NCBI GenBank assembly: GCA_002721445.1
Contig: PBKN01000005.1
Coordinates: 219,689 to 283,688 of the forward strand
DNA: 64,000 bases
Source: Chloroflexota bacterium
GTDB lineage: Bacteria > Chloroflexota > Dehalococcoidia > Lucifugimonadales > GCA-002723415
Direction of reading: 5' to 3'
In this document: one piece after another, positions 38,387 to 51,427 of the stretch
How positions within the stretch are numbered: the stretch's first letter is position 1
Layout: the number at the start of each line of letters is the position of its first letter
Translations under genes and position numbers: made by a program
Notes under the pieces: model-generated
Database searches by the model: none
Seen by the model: only the letters and a program-made list of their open reading frames with translations
Told to the model about the DNA's origin: nothing

Positions 38387-39976
38387 TTATTTTTGATCAA
38401 CTAAATGACCTCCCAGTATTGGCCAACCTTCTGAATTCCAACTTAATGATCTGACTCCTAATTTAGATATGCCATTATCAAATCCATCATAGAAATGGTA
38501 GGTAAAAATATCTCCATATTCTGAAGTAGTAAGTATACCTGCGTGACCTGGTCCAATATATCTCCCTTCAGTTTTTAGGATTACTGAACCTCCACCATTT
38601 AACATATCCTTACCATTTTTATCAAAATAAGGTCCACCGATATTTTTTGACCTTCCAGCTACAATGAAATATGTAGAATTAATTCCATTACAACATTTAC
38701 CATGATTTACAAATAAATAATAATATTCACCATTTTTATATATATATGGTGCTTCAATTTCTACTTCATCAATTCCATTATTAAATGCGATATTGATAAA
38801 TCTTTCTGGATAATCTGAAGTTGTAGGCTTATCATTGTAATTACTTAATAACATTGTGCTTGAATCTAATTCAGTAACATATATACCTCCAGCATGAGAT
38901 CCAAATACTAAATAAACTTTATCGTCATTATCTCGAATTACACTTGGGTCCATTGCTCTAGCAGTTGACAAGTTCTCATCAAAAGATTGCACAACAATTC
39001 CTTTATCAATCCATTCAGGACTATCAGGAGATCCAATGTTTTCAGCAACTCCAATTGCATCCCTTATTGTCGCATCATTTTCATCGTAAACAGTATAAAA
39101 TATATATTTTCCATTATCTAAAAGAGAAGGAGCGTCAAATTCACCTGTTGGATTCCATATTTGAAATTGCTTAGCCCAAGCAGGTACTCCATTAGCAAAA
39201 ACTGAATTATAATCTTTATAAGATCTATCTTTAAGATTAATTAAAATACCTTGTAGTGGTTTTCCTTGAGATCCAGATCCATATCCAATTAAATTATCTT
39301 CATTACCAAAATTAAAAAAAGCACTTGGATCATGGACTAATTCAGTAATTGACTGTAATACGGTATTGGGCATAGGTGCTGGTGTAGGTACAACTATAAG
39401 TGAAGATGGTTGATTAAGTTGAACTAAAAGACCTAGAATTTCAGCTTCTTTATATTTTAATAATTCCAGTAATTGATCGTTATTATTTAAAAGCTTCTCA
39501 AGTTCAATGTTTAAACTTTCGTTTTTTTGATCTAAGTTAATAATATTATCTTGAGTTAAATTAATTAGTTTCCTGGTTTGATCTAATTCAATATTTATAT
39601 TATCAAATTCTGCTATTAAATCTTTATTACTAATAATTAATAAATCAATTTCGCTCTGGGAATCTTCAGACCTAGTTGTCATCTTCTTATTTAAATTCTC
39701 TAGGTTTTCAGCTCTTGTTTTAGCATTATTTATTTCATTTTCTAAAATACCAATTTCTCTAACTAAATCTTTCCCATTATTTATCAACTGATTAAATTCA
39801 TTTTTTAATTCATCATTCATTTCATTTACTTCTTTTTCTAAAGAGTTTGAAATTACAAAATCTAAATTAATTTCTTTTTCCACCTGCCCTGAACCTGACC
39901 CTTCGCCTAATAAACCATTACATCCAATTAAAGACAAAATTGTTGTCAATGTAATTAAATAAATAAGGTTGCGCAT
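38387..39976 (-). CDS. Lipoprotein with coiled-coil stalk fused to GH43 arabinanase-like propeller
   Basis: Lipobox SLIGCNG; about 150 aa heptad-like coiled coil; then VHDPSAFF, ARAMDPSVIRD, EIEAPYIYKNGEYYYLFVNHGKCCNGINSTYFIVAGRSKNIGGPY, GPGHAGI. ATG 39976 behind GGAG. Confidence 0.85.
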   Translation of the reverse strand: MRNLIYLITLTTILSLIGCNGLLGEGSGSGQVEKEINLDFVISNSLEKEVNEMNDELKNEFNQLINNGKDLVREIGILENEINNAKTRAENLENLNKKMTTRSEDSQSEIDLLIISNKDLIAEFDNINIELDQTRKLINLTQDNIINLDQKNESLNIELEKLLNNNDQLLELLKYKEAEILGLLVQLNQPSSLIVVPTPAPMPNTVLQSITELVHDPSAFFNFGNEDNLIGYGSGSQGKPLQGILINLKDRSYKDYNSVFANGVPAWAKQFQIWNPTGEFDAPSLLDNGKYIFYTVYDENDATIRDAIGVAENIGSPDSPEWIDKGIVVQSFDENLSTARAMDPSVIRDNDDKVYLVFGSHAGGIYVTELDSSTMLLSNYNDKPTTSDYPERFINIAFNNGIDEVEIEAPYIYKNGEYYYLFVNHGKCCNGINSTYFIVAGRSKNIGGPYFDKNGKDMLNGGGSVILKTEGRYIGPGHAGILTTSEYGDIFTYHFYDGFDNGISKLGVRSLSWNSEGWPILGGHLVDQK

Positions 39977-40039
39977 TATTTTCTCCATATGATATAAAAA
40001 TATTAAGTTCTATTTATTTTTTAATATTTGAAAATAGTA

Positions 40040-40624
40040 TCAACTTGAATCCACGTTCTTTTGCTCTAATTGATCTTTCAAAATTGCTATTTGATCTTCT
40101 TTTTGATTTAACTGATTAACTAAATCAGTATTTTCAATAATAATCATTTGAATATCATTATTTAATTTAGAATTGTTATCTTCCAAATCATATAATTTTG
40201 TCATAGACTGATTTAAATCATCTCTCAAATTCTTAAGTTGCTCTAAATATACGTCTAATTCCTGGATTAATACTGAATTTGTTTTCTTCAAATCTTCAAT
40301 TTCATTTTGGGAATTAGCAGCGAGTTCTTGGTTTAATCTGTCGAATTCGTCTCCTATTTTCAAAGCTTCGTCTAATTCTTTTAACAATATTTCTTCTTTT
40401 TCACTTAAAGACTTCCTCAGATCCATCAATTGATTAAATTCTCTACGTAATTCTTCGCTCACCTCATTAAGGGCATAATTTAGTCCTTCTGAAATTTCTG
40501 GCCCAATTTTTAATATATCTAAAGATATATCTTCTTCTGATGCTGCGCCTTGCCCAATAACACCACTACAGCCAATTAAAGTAAAAATCATTATCAATGT
40601 AATTAAATAAATAAGCTTACGCAT
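40040..40624 (-). CDS. Coiled-coil lipoprotein
   Basis: MRKLIYLITLIMIFTLIGCSGVIGQG lipobox then coiled-coil; similar to N-terminus of the downstream GH43 fusion. Confidence 0.75.
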   Translation of the reverse strand: MRKLIYLITLIMIFTLIGCSGVIGQGAASEEDISLDILKIGPEISEGLNYALNEVSEELRREFNQLMDLRKSLSEKEEILLKELDEALKIGDEFDRLNQELAANSQNEIEDLKKTNSVLIQELDVYLEQLKNLRDDLNQSMTKLYDLEDNNSKLNNDIQMIIIENTDLVNQLNQKEDQIAILKDQLEQKNVDSS

Positions 40625-40652
40625 TCTTTTCTCCAAGTGTTAAAAAATTAAT

Positions 40653-41243
40653 CTATTTATTTAAAGCTTTAGATAGCTCTCCCTGCAACCTTAAAGATTC
40701 TTTATTCAAATCTTCTATTGTCCTTAAAGCATCTTCCAAGCGTATTCGTCCTTCATCTACTTTTCTATTAGAGTCATCAGATCTTTTAATTAATTTATTA
40801 ATTTCATCTTGATAATTTTTTTCTAATTCTTCACTTCTTTTTTGCCAATCTTCTTCAGTTTGGTTAATAATTGATTGAAAATTACTTTCTGTTTCATTTC
40901 TTTCTTTTTCAATTCTAACTAACCAATCTTGGTCTATTTCTTCAATAATTTTGTTAATTTCATCTTGATAATTTTTTTCTAATTCTTCACTTCTTTTTTG
41001 CCAATCTTCTTCAATATCAGCTCTAATATTGTCAGCTTGTTGATTTAATGTATCTATTTCTGACCGAAGTTGCTCAGACTCTTCTGTTAATTCCACAACC
41101 TTTTCTAGCGCTTCTACTAAATCTGATTGTATTTGATCAAAATTGGTAGATTTTTCATTACCTGTACCTTGACCAACTAAACCGCCACAACCAATTAAGG
41201 ATAATATTATTATAGAAATCAACACAAAAATAACTTTTTGCAT
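40653..41243 (-). CDS. Coiled-coil lipoprotein with internal repeats
   Basis: MQKVIFVLISIIILSLIGCGGLVGQG lipobox; EEDWQKRSEELEKNYQDEINK present twice. Confidence 0.75.
   Translation of the reverse strand: MQKVIFVLISIIILSLIGCGGLVGQGTGNEKSTNFDQIQSDLVEALEKVVELTEESEQLRSEIDTLNQQADNIRADIEEDWQKRSEELEKNYQDEINKIIEEIDQDWLVRIEKERNETESNFQSIINQTEEDWQKRSEELEKNYQDEINKLIKRSDDSNRKVDEGRIRLEDALRTIEDLNKESLRLQGELSKALNK
40798..41013 (-). repeat. Perfect 60-bp direct repeat, two copies with 156-bp offset, inside lipoprotein gene
   Basis: ttaatttcatcttgataatttttttctaattcttcacttcttttttgccaatcttcttca at 40798-40857 and 40954-41013. Confidence 0.9.
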
Positions 41244-41436
41244 GTTTCTCCTTATTTCTAAAATAGTCCTAATTTAGGACACTAAATGATTACATTTTAA
41301 TTATAACTTATCAAGTGATTATTATATATTAGTAAAATTACCTGTTTGATTTTGTATAAATTAATCTGCAAAGCATAATAAAACTAAATTCTGTTAAAAT
41401 GAATTTAAAAAATCATTTTAGAAAAAAGGATAGGAT

Positions 41437-41798: not shown

Positions 41799-42659
41799 AT
41801 GAACACATCATCAAAATTAAAAAAATTATTAAATGGCAATAAATCTATAATTGTCCCTGGAGTGCATGATCCTATGAGTGCAAAAATTTTCCAAGACAGT
41901 GGATTTGATGTTCTATTCGCTGGAGGCTTCTCTTTATCTGCATCTACATTAGGAGTTCCTGATATAGGATTATTAACTATGTCTGAAAACATAGAACGTG
42001 TAAAGAGAATTACAAGTCACATAGATATTCCATTGATTGCAGATATGGATACTGGATATGGAAACCCAATTAATGTAATACGAACTGTAAAAGAATCTAT
42101 AAATGCCGGAGCTTCAGCAATTATTCTTGAAGACCAATCATGGCCAAAAAGATGTGGACATATGGAAGGGAAATCTGTCATATCTATGGAAGAACATGTA
42201 GCAAAAATAAAAGCAGCAGATTATGCTAGAAAAAATTCAGACTTAGTAATAATAGCAAGAACAGACTCACGCGGGACACATAATCTAGATGAAGCTATTA
42301 AAAGAGGTAAAGCATTAGAAAAAAGTGGAGCTGATGTAATATTTATTGAAGCACCTCAAACAGAAGAAGAGATAAAAACTATTGGAAAAGAAATAAACAA
42401 ACCATTACTAATTAATTTAATTGAAGGCGGAAAAACTCCAAGCCTATCAATAAACGAATTTGAATCTCTAGGATTTAAAATTATATTACACCCACTTACA
42501 AGTATATTTGCAACAGCCTATTCTATGAAGAAATTAGCAAATCACATAAAATCTAATTCTACAACCAAAAATTATAATGAAATATTAGATTTCAATGAAT
42601 TTGAGAAAGTAGTCGATTTAGAAAAATACAAAGAATTAGACTCTCAGTTTTTAATTTAA
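41799..42659 (+). CDS. Isocitrate lyase/PEP mutase family protein
   Basis: PGVHDPMSAKIFQDSGFDVLFAGGFSLSAS, ADMDTGYGNPINV, LEDQSWPKRCGHMEGK, IIARTDSRG. Confidence 0.9.
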   Translation: MNTSSKLKKLLNGNKSIIVPGVHDPMSAKIFQDSGFDVLFAGGFSLSASTLGVPDIGLLTMSENIERVKRITSHIDIPLIADMDTGYGNPINVIRTVKESINAGASAIILEDQSWPKRCGHMEGKSVISMEEHVAKIKAADYARKNSDLVIIARTDSRGTHNLDEAIKRGKALEKSGADVIFIEAPQTEEEIKTIGKEINKPLLINLIEGGKTPSLSINEFESLGFKIILHPLTSIFATAYSMKKLANHIKSNSTTKNYNEILDFNEFEKVVDLEKYKELDSQFLI

Positions 42660-47939: not shown

Positions 47940-48398
47940 CTATTGTATTTCTAAGCACTTACAATCATTGCAAGTGCTGAGAAGTTCTAATGAATGAGAC
48001 AATACTGAAACATTACGAGAAGATTCTATTTGTTCTATTTGTTCTTTAAGCTGTTGCTCTAAAATATCATCTAATTCAAAATCATCTACAGCCCCACAAT
48101 TATTGCAGAAAATATGATGATGATGGCCTTCTATATTGGATAGTTCTATCACTTTTGTTTTATCAGGAGTTTGAAATTCACTAATTAAATTGTAGTTTTC
48201 AAATATATTGATAATTCTATACAAAGAAGATATCGCAATTTTACCTTTTGACAATCTAATTACATCTTCTATTCTTAAAGGACCTTTGTTTTGCAACAAT
48301 ATTCCTAACAACTGAATCCTTGGTCGAGTTATAGGAATAGCATACTCTCTTAAAATTATCTTACATTCTTCTGTTAAATCTTTTTGGTCTTTAAACAT
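47940..48398 (-). CDS. zur: Fur-family regulator (Zur candidate by context)
   Basis: PITRPRIQLLGILLQNKGPLRIEDV, SSLYRIINIFEN, EGHHHHIFCNNCG, CNDC; divergent from znuA. Confidence 0.8.
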   Translation of the reverse strand: MFKDQKDLTEECKIILREYAIPITRPRIQLLGILLQNKGPLRIEDVIRLSKGKIAISSLYRIINIFENYNLISEFQTPDKTKVIELSNIEGHHHHIFCNNCGAVDDFELDDILEQQLKEQIEQIESSRNVSVLSHSLELLSTCNDCKCLEIQ

Positions 48399-48456
48399 AA
48401 GGTTATTATACCTATTAATTAATTAAATTCCAATGACTTAATTTTAGAAAGTAATC

Positions 48457-48508
48457 TTGACATATTATAAAAAACATGACATTATTGGGAATAAGAATCA
48501 TTCTCATT
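48457..48508 (+). promoter_or_regulatory. Putative znuA promoter with Fur/Zur-type box
   Basis: TTGACA 48457-48462, 17 nt, CATTAT 48480-48485; near-palindrome AATAAGAAT-C-ATTCTCATT 48490-48508 (one mismatched pair). Confidence 0.6.
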
Positions 48509-48522
48509 TAAGGAGGAATGTA

Positions 48523-49605
48523 ATGAAAATATTTAATTTATTAAAGAAATTCTCTGTAATTTTTTTAGCAATAACCTTGATTGGATGTGGGCTTGGAGAA
48601 GAATCTTCATCTGAAGTCGAAAAGCCTTCACCTGAAATCCAAGAGTCTAGTAAAGACCTTAATATTTTAGCCACAACGCCTATGCTAGGTGAATATGTTC
48701 AGCAAGTAGCAGGAGATGTTCTTGATGTACAGATTTTAATGCCTTATAGTGTTAATCCGCATATGTTTGATCCATCTCCTCAAGATGTTAAGAAGATCAG
48801 TGAAGCTGATTTAGTTTTTCATGTAGGTATAAAATATGAAAGTACAGCTCTCCGAAAACTAATTGAAAATACAGTAACTAATGAGCAAGTTTTAATTGAA
48901 ATAGGGTCTAGAATTAACCCTATAGAATTTAAAGACGAACACGATGATCATGATGGTCACGATGATCATGACGACGAAGGCAAACACGATGATCATGACG
49001 ACGAAGGCAAACACGATGATCATGATGACGAAGGCAAACACGATGATCATGACGGTCACGATGACCACGATGGCCACGATCATGGCACATTTGATCCCCA
49101 CTTTTGGTTTGATATCGATAGAGTGGTATTAGCTATTAATGAAATTAAAAAAGAATTAATAAAAATAGATCCAGAAAATAGAAGTTCTTATGAATCATCA
49201 GCAAATAGCTATATACAAGAATTAAAAACTTTAGATGAAGAAATAACTTCTCTAATTGAATCAATTCCTTCTAATAATAGAAAAATAGTGACTACTCATG
49301 AATCATTAGGCTATTTAGAAGTAAAGTATGGGATCAACGTTTTATCTACAATAATCCCAAGTTATACTACAGAAGATGGAACTACTCCTAAAGGATTAGT
49401 TAGTGTGATTGAAACAATAAAAGAAAATCAAATAAAAACAATCTTTCTTGAATCTGAAAGCCCTACTAAAGCTGCAGAAGTCATTGCTGATGAAACTGGT
49501 GCAATTTTAGTTTCGGGATTATGGGTTGAAACCTTGAAAGAAAATCAATCTTACATTGATTTTATGAAAACTAATATAGGTATTATTGTAGATTATCTAC
49601 AATAA
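48523..49605 (+). CDS. znuA: Zinc ABC transporter substrate-binding lipoprotein (ZnuA-like) with His/Asp-rich loop
   Basis: Lipobox TLIGCG; NPHMFDPSPQDVKKISEADLVFHVG; HDDHDDEGK repeats; FDPHFWFD; ATG behind aaggagg. Confidence 0.93.
   Translation: MKIFNLLKKFSVIFLAITLIGCGLGEESSSEVEKPSPEIQESSKDLNILATTPMLGEYVQQVAGDVLDVQILMPYSVNPHMFDPSPQDVKKISEADLVFHVGIKYESTALRKLIENTVTNEQVLIEIGSRINPIEFKDEHDDHDGHDDHDDEGKHDDHDDEGKHDDHDDEGKHDDHDGHDDHDGHDHGTFDPHFWFDIDRVVLAINEIKKELIKIDPENRSSYESSANSYIQELKTLDEEITSLIESIPSNNRKIVTTHESLGYLEVKYGINVLSTIIPSYTTEDGTTPKGLVSVIETIKENQIKTIFLESESPTKAAEVIADETGAILVSGLWVETLKENQSYIDFMKTNIGIIVDYLQ
48958..49038 (+). repeat. Three tandem 27-bp repeats encoding HDDHDDEGK
   Basis: CACGATGATCATGACGACGAAGGCAAA x3 with one substitution in the third copy. 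Confidence 0.95.
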
Positions 49606-49616
49606 TACCTGATTAG

Positions 49617-49741
49617 CACGGTCGGTTGTTGCTGTTGAGCTCTACAGCGCACACTTAGAGCTTAGCAGCAACTTATACTTCCCACGGTCGGTTGTTGCTG
49701 TTGAGTTCTACAGCGCACACTTGGAGCTTAGCAGCAACTTA
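49617..49741. repeat. Two tandem GC-rich 59-bp units (66-bp period), each with a 16-bp-stem hairpin
   Basis: CACGGTCGGTT + GTTGCTGTTGAGYTCT + ACAGCGCACACTT + RGAGCTTAGCAGCAAC + TTA at 49617-49675 and 49683-49741, 57/59 identical. Confidence 0.92.
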
Positions 49742-49824
49742 ATTTAATTTAAAGTAGTTTAAATCAATAAATAAGTGAATTTTCCTATAGTTAGATATTA
49801 TGAATTCTTGTATAGTTACAAATT

Positions 49825-50610
49825 ATGTTACAAAAAACTTCTAATGATAATTGCCAAATAGTTTCTGATGGTTGCTGTGTGGAACTTGGAAATGAAGTAA
49901 TTTTAGATGACGTTAGTTTCTCAATTAAAAAAGGAACCTTGGTTGGAGTTGTTGGCCCTAATGGAGGAGGAAAAACAACTTTATTTAATACTATATTGGG
50001 CTTAGTTTCAATCACTCATGGCTCAATTAAAATAAAAGGATTAGACCCTAAACAAACTTCAGGAATGATTGGATATGTTCCTCAAAAAGAAGAATTAAAT
50101 TGGAACTTTCCTGTAACTGCTAAGGAAGTCGTCCAAATGGGAATCACCAATAACAATTCATTACGACCTATTCCATCTAAAAAAGATCATCAAATAATTG
50201 AAGAATCGTTAAGCAAAGTAGATCTACTAGACAGAATTAATGATCGCGTAGAAAATATGTCGGGTGGACAAAGACAAAGGGTCTTTTTGGCTAGAACTTT
50301 AGCTCAGGGTGCAGAAATTTTACTTTTAGATGAAGCTTTTAGTGGAGTAGATATTGGTTCACAAGAAAAATTGTTAGATGTATTGAAAAAACTAAAAAAT
50401 GATGGAAATACGGTCTTAATGGCAACTCATGATTTGAACACAATTGGTGAAAGGTTTGATGAGGTTCTGTGCCTCAATAGACATTGCTGCGCTTTTGGTG
50501 ACCCGAAGCAGGTCTTGACCAAAGATGTTTTAGCTGAATTATATGGTTCCCATAGCTCAATGTTTGAAAACCATTCATTAGGTAACCATGGGCACAATGA
50601 TGGGATTTGA
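49825..50610 (+). CDS. znuC: Metal ABC transporter ATP-binding protein (ZnuC-like)
   Basis: GVVGPNGGGKTTLFNTILGL; NMSGGQRQRVFLARTLAQGAEILLLDEAFSGVD. Confidence 0.94.
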   Translation: MLQKTSNDNCQIVSDGCCVELGNEVILDDVSFSIKKGTLVGVVGPNGGGKTTLFNTILGLVSITHGSIKIKGLDPKQTSGMIGYVPQKEELNWNFPVTAKEVVQMGITNNNSLRPIPSKKDHQIIEESLSKVDLLDRINDRVENMSGGQRQRVFLARTLAQGAEILLLDEAFSGVDIGSQEKLLDVLKKLKNDGNTVLMATHDLNTIGERFDEVLCLNRHCCAFGDPKQVLTKDVLAELYGSHSSMFENHSLGNHGHNDGI

Positions 50611-51427
50611 ATACATATACGAACCATTTTCTTACGCATTTATGATTAGATCTTTAATAGTTGCTGTTTCAGTTGGATTAATGTTGCCTTTGCTGGGTTC
50701 ATATGTTATCAACCGTAATTTAGGTTTTATGGGAGATGCAATTGCTCATGCTAGTTTACCAGCACTGGTTTTTGGATTATTAATAGGTGTGAATATTCTT
50801 ATAGCAGCTATACCTGCAGCAATACTTCTTGCTTTATTACTTGGATATCTAATCAACAAATCAAATATAGGCGAGGATACTGCAATTGGAATCATTTTTT
50901 CTTCGTTCTTTGCTCTAGGTTTTATTTTATTATCAATTTTTAAAAATATTGCACTCAACGTAGAAGATTTACTATTCGGACAAATTTTAGGCGTCTCCAG
51001 TTTTGATGTTTCAATTACTTTGATTTTAACTACAATTGTTATAATTACATCATTTATACTTTACAAACAATTTTTGTTTATCTCCTTTGACCCTAAGGGA
51101 GCTAAAGTAGCAGGAATAAAAGTAAATCTATTCAATAATATTTTTTTAGTGCTTTTATCTTTAGCTATTATTGCAGCATTACAATCTGTAGGAATAATTT
51201 TGGTTTTAAGCATGCTAATTACTCCTGCTGCTGCTGCTAAATTAATAATTAAGAGTTTCCCTAATACAATAATAACAGGAGCTATCTTTGGAATTACTGC
51301 TTCAATGAGCGGATTATATTTATCTTATTATTTAGATTTTCCTTCAGGACCATCAATGGCTTTAACCGCCACATTAATATTTATAATTGTTTGGATATTA
51401 AAAAGAACAATTAGTTATGCAAATTAA
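50588..51427 (+). CDS. znuB: Metal ABC transporter permease (ZnuB-like)
   Basis: LGSYVINRNLGFMGDAIAHASLPALVFG; LVLSMLITPAAAAKL; overlaps znuC end. Confidence 0.93.
   Translation: MGTMMGFEYIYEPFSYAFMIRSLIVAVSVGLMLPLLGSYVINRNLGFMGDAIAHASLPALVFGLLIGVNILIAAIPAAILLALLLGYLINKSNIGEDTAIGIIFSSFFALGFILLSIFKNIALNVEDLLFGQILGVSSFDVSITLILTTIVIITSFILYKQFLFISFDPKGAKVAGIKVNLFNNIFLVLLSLAIIAALQSVGIILVLSMLITPAAAAKLIIKSFPNTIITGAIFGITASMSGLYLSYYLDFPSGPSMALTATLIFIIVWILKRTISYAN

Follow-up and report, generated by a model that had tools for sequence, protein, structure and literature searches.

The locus and its genes

The window, which is the whole 64 kb stretch of DNA analyzed here, has a GC content of 31.7% and belongs to a genome of 1.71 Mb in 18 contigs with a completeness of 99%. 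Three co-directional genes, M3, M2, and M1, follow one another in that order on its minus strand. The gap between M3 and M2 is 28 bp and that between M2 and M1 is 63 bp, in agreement with the first-pass annotation, which had placed three co-directional genes here with gaps of about 30-60 bp. Translation of M1 and M2 begins at the ATG codons at 39976 and 40624, respectively, four codons inside the listed ORFs, as indicated by the ribosome-binding site GGAGAAA ahead of each. The positions of the genes and of the features within them are given in Table 1.

Table 1. Genes and features of the operon, with positions in the window
Feature	Position	Strand	Description	Basis
M3	40653-41243	-	Lipoprotein of 196 aa, helical (coiled coil or single helix); first of the run	ORF; leader LIGC-GGLVGQG; AlphaFold2
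M3 predicted helix	40659-41153	-	Residues 31-195, about 24 nm	AlphaFold2; mixed periodicity
M2	40040-40624	-	Lipoprotein with a coiled coil; 194 aa when started at the inner ATG; leader and coil duplicate those of M1	
M1	38387-39976	-	Lipoprotein, 529 aa; leader, long coil, linker, and GH43 domain	
M1 signal peptide	39923-39976	-	Residues 1-18, ahead of lipobox Cys19	
M1 post-cysteine G-E-G motif	39899-39907	-	Residues 24-26; GQG in M2 to M5	
M1 predicted continuous helix / coiled coil	39413-39865	-	Residues 38-188, about 22 nm	Periodicity; AlphaFold2
M1 disordered linker	39344-39412	-	Residues 189-211, with Pro/Thr	pLDDT <50
M1 GH43 domain	38390-39343	-	Five-bladed propeller, residues 212-529; D216, D343, E408; W281D	
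Palindrome	41266-41280	.	22 bp upstream of the M3 start	Sequence

The palindrome ahead of M3, GTCCTAAATTAGGAC, is a possible operator, or it may be a chance occurrence. A gene for a DUF1294 membrane protein begins 12 bp past M1 and is followed by a GNAT gene, both co-directional with M1. No terminator-like site was found on the M1 strand between M1 and the DUF1294 and GNAT genes, and the transcription unit may therefore be longer than three genes. Among the scanned neighbors of the operon there is no sugar transporter and no other glycan-degrading gene. A 329-aa protein at 46585-47574 matches the Pfam family Ceramidase (PF05875, E 2e-12). At 47940-51427, a likely metal-uptake locus combines a FUR-family regulator with an adjacent ZnuA-type lipoprotein and ABC genes.

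Leaders and stalks

The N-termini of M1, M2, and M3 run from a short basic segment through a hydrophobic core to an LIGC lipobox, after which the sequence follows the pattern C-x4-G[EQ]G. The first-pass annotation had called these leaders near-identical. A DNA form of the motif has three occurrences in the window against 0.10 expected from dinucleotide shuffles. The lipobox of M1 to M3, together with an Lgt gene in the genome (E 2e-50), identifies the three as bacterial lipoproteins.

In the whole genome the leader pattern occurs at five places, compared with two for a reversed control pattern. These five are M1, M2, M3, and two further genes, M4 and M5. M4, of 177 aa, lies on contig C5 at 322 kb, and M5, of 231 aa, on contig C17 at 5.9 kb; each has the same leader and a heptad-patterned region. 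A profile built from the five leaders recovers M1 to M5 at E 2e-18 or better. The next match in the genome is far weaker (E 8e-5) and is a family-5 solute-binding lipoprotein that carries the motif as CNSLVGEGTS (G000:C1:207628; L007:1468-3207). A 528-aa lipoprotein of two order-mates from another family (G233 and G234; L148:1918-3504) begins IGCNAVTGQATG and matches the leader profile at E 5e-5. The post-cysteine form G[EQ][GA][TS] heads both the solute-binding lipoprotein and this 528-aa lipoprotein.

The post-cysteine motif may serve as a linker or as a sorting signal in the lipoproteins of one lineage. It is absent from four other lipoproteins picked by pattern in 144 kb of the window genome, and lipoprotein counts in this genome rest on searches and selected stretches. 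Across the order, the leader pattern has single matches in 15 other genomes. The two that read closest (L115 and L119) were rejected, as neither heads a lipoprotein gene. Judged by sequence, the leader marks one set of this genome's lipoproteins, mostly coiled coils, and is not peculiar to the operon. Immediately upstream of M5 is a membrane-microdomain pair, composed of genes for an NfeD1b membrane protease and an SPFH (Band 7) protein (L025:3557-6560). Three tandem related lipoproteins with another leader type (SCSN) are found at L025:17541-19603.

The AlphaFold2 model of single-chain M1 contains one unbroken helix of 151 residues, with residues 18-37 and 189-211 disordered. Single-chain M3, modeled from sequence alone, contains one unbroken helix of 165 residues. 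The helix lengths in Table 1 were calculated from 1.485 angstrom per residue. The hydropathy of M1 has a strong period of 3.5 residues and that of M5 a very sharp one, with 0 of 2000 shuffles as high in either case, and both proteins place Leu and Ile at two core positions of the heptad. Periodicity is weaker in M4 and in M2, where it is marginal (p 0.05), and is mixed in M3, between 3.5 and 3.8 (p 0.02). The long coiled coils predicted for all three proteins are supported in M1, which combines a long unbroken helix with a heptad period, and are marginal in M2 and mixed in M3 by periodicity.

The coils of M1 and M2 align end to end with 34% identity (z 10.7), and 0 of 300 heptad-preserving shuffles scored as high. 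The leader and upstream region of the two genes is 78% identical over 114 nucleotides, and their coils have diverged with a dN of 0.65 against a dS of 1.34. No kinship of the M3 coil with that of M1 (z 0.5) or M2 (z 1.2) was detected beyond the leader and heptad pattern. The M3 coil does stand out against that of M4 (z 4.3). From the end-to-end coil homology and the shared leader region, M1 and M2 are therefore read as tandem duplicates along leader and coil, and M3 as a separate branch with the same anchor. The earlier description of three related stalks holds for M1 and M2, but M3 shares only the leader with them. M3 also contains an internal 73-nucleotide direct repeat (40785-41013, 95% identical) that encodes two near-identical helical segments.

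The GH43 head and its distribution

The C-terminal 318 residues of M1 form the GH43 head. The match to PF04616 (Glyco_hydro_43) has an E value of 6e-27 and 95.1 bits, against a gathering cut-off of 32.2. The catalytic triad D216, D343, and E408 is intact and is conserved across relatives, and a conserved histidine is also kept. This confirms the GH43-type propeller with the expected acidic residues that had been proposed from the sequence.

The head has 22 PDB matches, nearly all arabinanases, of which the closest by sequence is 1gyd (E 5e-45). Its fold matches are AbnB, ABN-TS, and other arabinanases at a target TM of 0.80-0.87. The GH43 endo-1,5-alpha-L-arabinanases CjArb43A of Cellvibrio (1gyd), AbnB of Geobacillus (3cu9), and ABN-TS (1wl7) share the fold and catalytic residues of M1, with about 31% identity over the propeller. 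These enzymes lack the lipid anchor and 22-nm stalk of M1, and they have a Trp where M1 has an Asp. The NCBIfam model for AbnA-type endo-arabinanase (NF053747) gives M1 168 bits, which is below the curated equivalog cut-off of 480.

Across 26 relatives, 51 columns are conserved, and M1 keeps 46 of them. The loss that stands out most is at position 281, which is Asp in M1 and Trp in all 26 of the sampled relatives. This residue aligns with W94 of CjArb43A, a Trp that we take to line the substrate cleft. Because of the W281D change, the substrate of M1 may be other than plain arabinan. The label "arabinanase-like" stands as a statement of kinship, and W281D makes arabinan specificity uncertain.

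The base composition of the head resembles that of the genome, and no sign of foreign origin was found by this measure. In the tree, M1 is the longest branch and is placed, with weak support, beside UBA7891, Planctomycetota, and Bacteroidota sequences.

Among 250 genomes of the order, one other intact GH43 relative was identified, a coil-less lipoprotein in Dehalococcoidia bacterium UBA7891 (L038). It resembles M1 in having a GH43 domain with a lipobox, is 36-38% identical to it, and comes from the same order. Unlike M1, it has no coiled coil, and the next gene is read as a GH2-type glycosidase. GH43 remnants or fragments are present in three further genomes of the order. Those in G239 (L020:1474-1722) and G242 (L021) adjoin a PEP-mutase-like gene; a PEP-mutase family gene is also found near the operon (window 41799-42659), a parallel that is possibly due to chance.

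No stalked GH43 was found in the 249 other genomes of the order, and no match to M2 or M3 in 58 genomes of the order, all of them outside the window genome's own family. The idea that the three genes are conserved together in relatives fails in these genomes. A class-wide search of 393 genomes with full M1 added a single genome, whose GH43 proteins are distant, and the lipoprotein leader was not seen on the copy inspected there. Full M1 had no match in the GTDB species collection. The GH43 alignment gave 114 confirmed relatives in that collection, of which 80 were kept; they were gathered with two short peptide patterns and are a sample, not a census. By a heuristic, a coiled-coil N-terminus was present in 0 of 82 inspected GH43 relatives, 80 of which came from the GTDB scan.

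Viral contigs gave no match. Phage records gave two fecal contigs with partial matches only, which leaves a phage origin unsupported. Plasmid matches came from 39 records, all below 60% identity, and those listed are ordinary GH43 genes.

The first-pass annotation knew of no described system with such a layout, and a literature search likewise found no GH43 or other glycosidase with a coiled-coil stalk. Lipobox, long coil, and GH43 occur together only in the window genome, as far as the searched genomes and collections show. Each part is of a known kind, and the combination appears to be new. The case rests on one draft genome.

Proposed display at the cell surface

The window genome and UBA7891 belong to the same order, and on this ground we infer that the window genome is a member of SAR202, which it resembles in size, GC content, and F420-related and enolase-superfamily genes. 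The SAR202 envelope is described as monoderm, peptidoglycan-free, and S-layered (PMC10444878, PMC11994032). Cultured cells are monoderm, without peptidoglycan genes, and have an S-layer-like coat (PMC10444878). S-layers, along with slaA and slaB genes by annotation, are reported for SAR202, and the envelopes are described as rich in surface glycoproteins (PMC11994032). No penicillin-binding transpeptidase was found in the window genome by a search that was positive in 10 of 14 controls. This absence matches the wall-less, S-layered envelope expected of SAR202-type Dehalococcoidia.

The preferred reading, to which sequence and models together give an even chance, is that M1 is a stalk-displayed glycosidase in which a lipid-anchored spacer rod presents the enzyme at S-layer height. 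Lgt would lipidate Cys19, and the lipid would hold M1 in the single membrane. The helix would pair or trimerize into a rod of about 22 nm, on which the enzyme of this peptidoglycan-free cell would reach the S-layer or pass through it. There the head would cut an arabinofuranose-containing or related glycan and release small sugars. M2 would be a headless copy of the M1 stalk that serves as its partner or as a spacer, and M3 would be another rod with an anchor of this type. M1 itself probably arose by fusion of a GH43 domain to one copy of a duplicated stalk gene.

Counted for this reading are the GH43 kinship, the M1 helix with its 3.5 period, Lgt, the absent transpeptidase, the M1-M2 duplication, and the composition of the head. 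Counted against it are the lack of sugar transporter or glycan-degrading neighbors, W281D, the longest branch, and the few carbohydrate enzymes reported in small low-GC SAR202 genomes (PMC11994032). The surface-anchored stalk family of the first-pass annotation is upheld in its lipobox, coils, and GH43 head by sequence and models, but the family is also found outside the operon, as M4 and M5. Several of the readings considered here can hold together.

A tentative alternative, compatible with a stalk-displayed glycosidase, is that the coiled-coil lipoproteins are S-layer pillars. They would act as SlaB-like, lipid-anchored distance rulers that hold the lattice about 22-25 nm above the membrane, with M1 as an enzyme-bearing pillar comparable to tetrabrachion and its STABLE protease. 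The similar lengths of the M1 and M3 helices (151 and 165 residues) and the five coil members with one anchor type fit such a role, as do the missing transpeptidase and the S-layers and annotated slaA and slaB of SAR202 (PMC11994032). However, no lattice-binding domain was matched by Pfam in M2 or M3, and their lack of matches in 58 genomes of the order would be odd for an essential envelope part unless the coils drift past recognition.

SlaB of Sulfolobus resembles M1 to M3 in combining a membrane anchor with a coiled coil, a possible distance ruler (PMC6911244). It differs in its transmembrane anchor and lattice-holding beta-sandwich domains (PMC6911244), neither of which is found in M2 or M3; no such beta-sandwich was matched by Pfam in M1 to M3, M2 and M3 being wholly helical or helix-like. 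Tetrabrachion with STABLE, from Staphylothermus marinus, resembles M1 as a coiled-coil surface stalk that bears a hydrolase in an organism without peptidoglycan (PMC5744192). It is, however, an archaeal glycoprotein, tetrameric and 70 nm long, built with 11-residue repeats, and it binds its protease non-covalently (PMC5744192). No sequence kinship with either system is claimed. It is quite unlikely that these genes form a bacterial S-layer pillar family, in which lipid-anchored coils that share the post-cysteine G[EQ]G linker would determine how far the layer stands off a peptidoglycan-free cell, and one member, fused to a glycoside hydrolase, would cut glycans at the lattice.

It is unlikely that the head trims the cell's own surface glycans, for example the sugars of S-layer glycoproteins, and not a food polysaccharide. 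Scanned neighbors without uptake or degradation genes, the substrate-site change W281D, and the glycoprotein-rich SAR202 envelopes (PMC11994032) would suit self-trimming, but the closest relatives act on plant-type arabinan, and we know of no arabinofuranose in SAR202 surface glycans. Also unlikely is that the long helices, that of M3 above all, are stable single helices and the proteins monomeric spacers. The mixed period of M3 (3.5 to 3.8), its many charged residues, and the single-chain nature of the AlphaFold2 models are consistent with single helices, whereas the sharp 3.5 period of M1 and M5 and the Leu and Ile in two of their core positions point to coiled coils. Least probable is a head that binds a glycan and no longer cuts it, making M1 an adhesin or capture protein. 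The loss of an invariant tryptophan and the long branch would fit this, but M1 has kept all three of its catalytic acids, a histidine conserved among relatives, and 46 of the 51 conserved columns, which argues for selection on activity.

The spacing between membrane and S-layer in peptidoglycan-free Dehalococcoidia is poorly known, and the rods provide named candidate genes for this gap. Lipid-anchored rods of near-equal length, one of them tipped with an enzyme, would offer a direct way of measuring it. M1 as a stalk-displayed glycosidase suggests that a lineage described as poor in carbohydrate enzymes may tether at least one of them at its surface and so lose the released sugars less easily.
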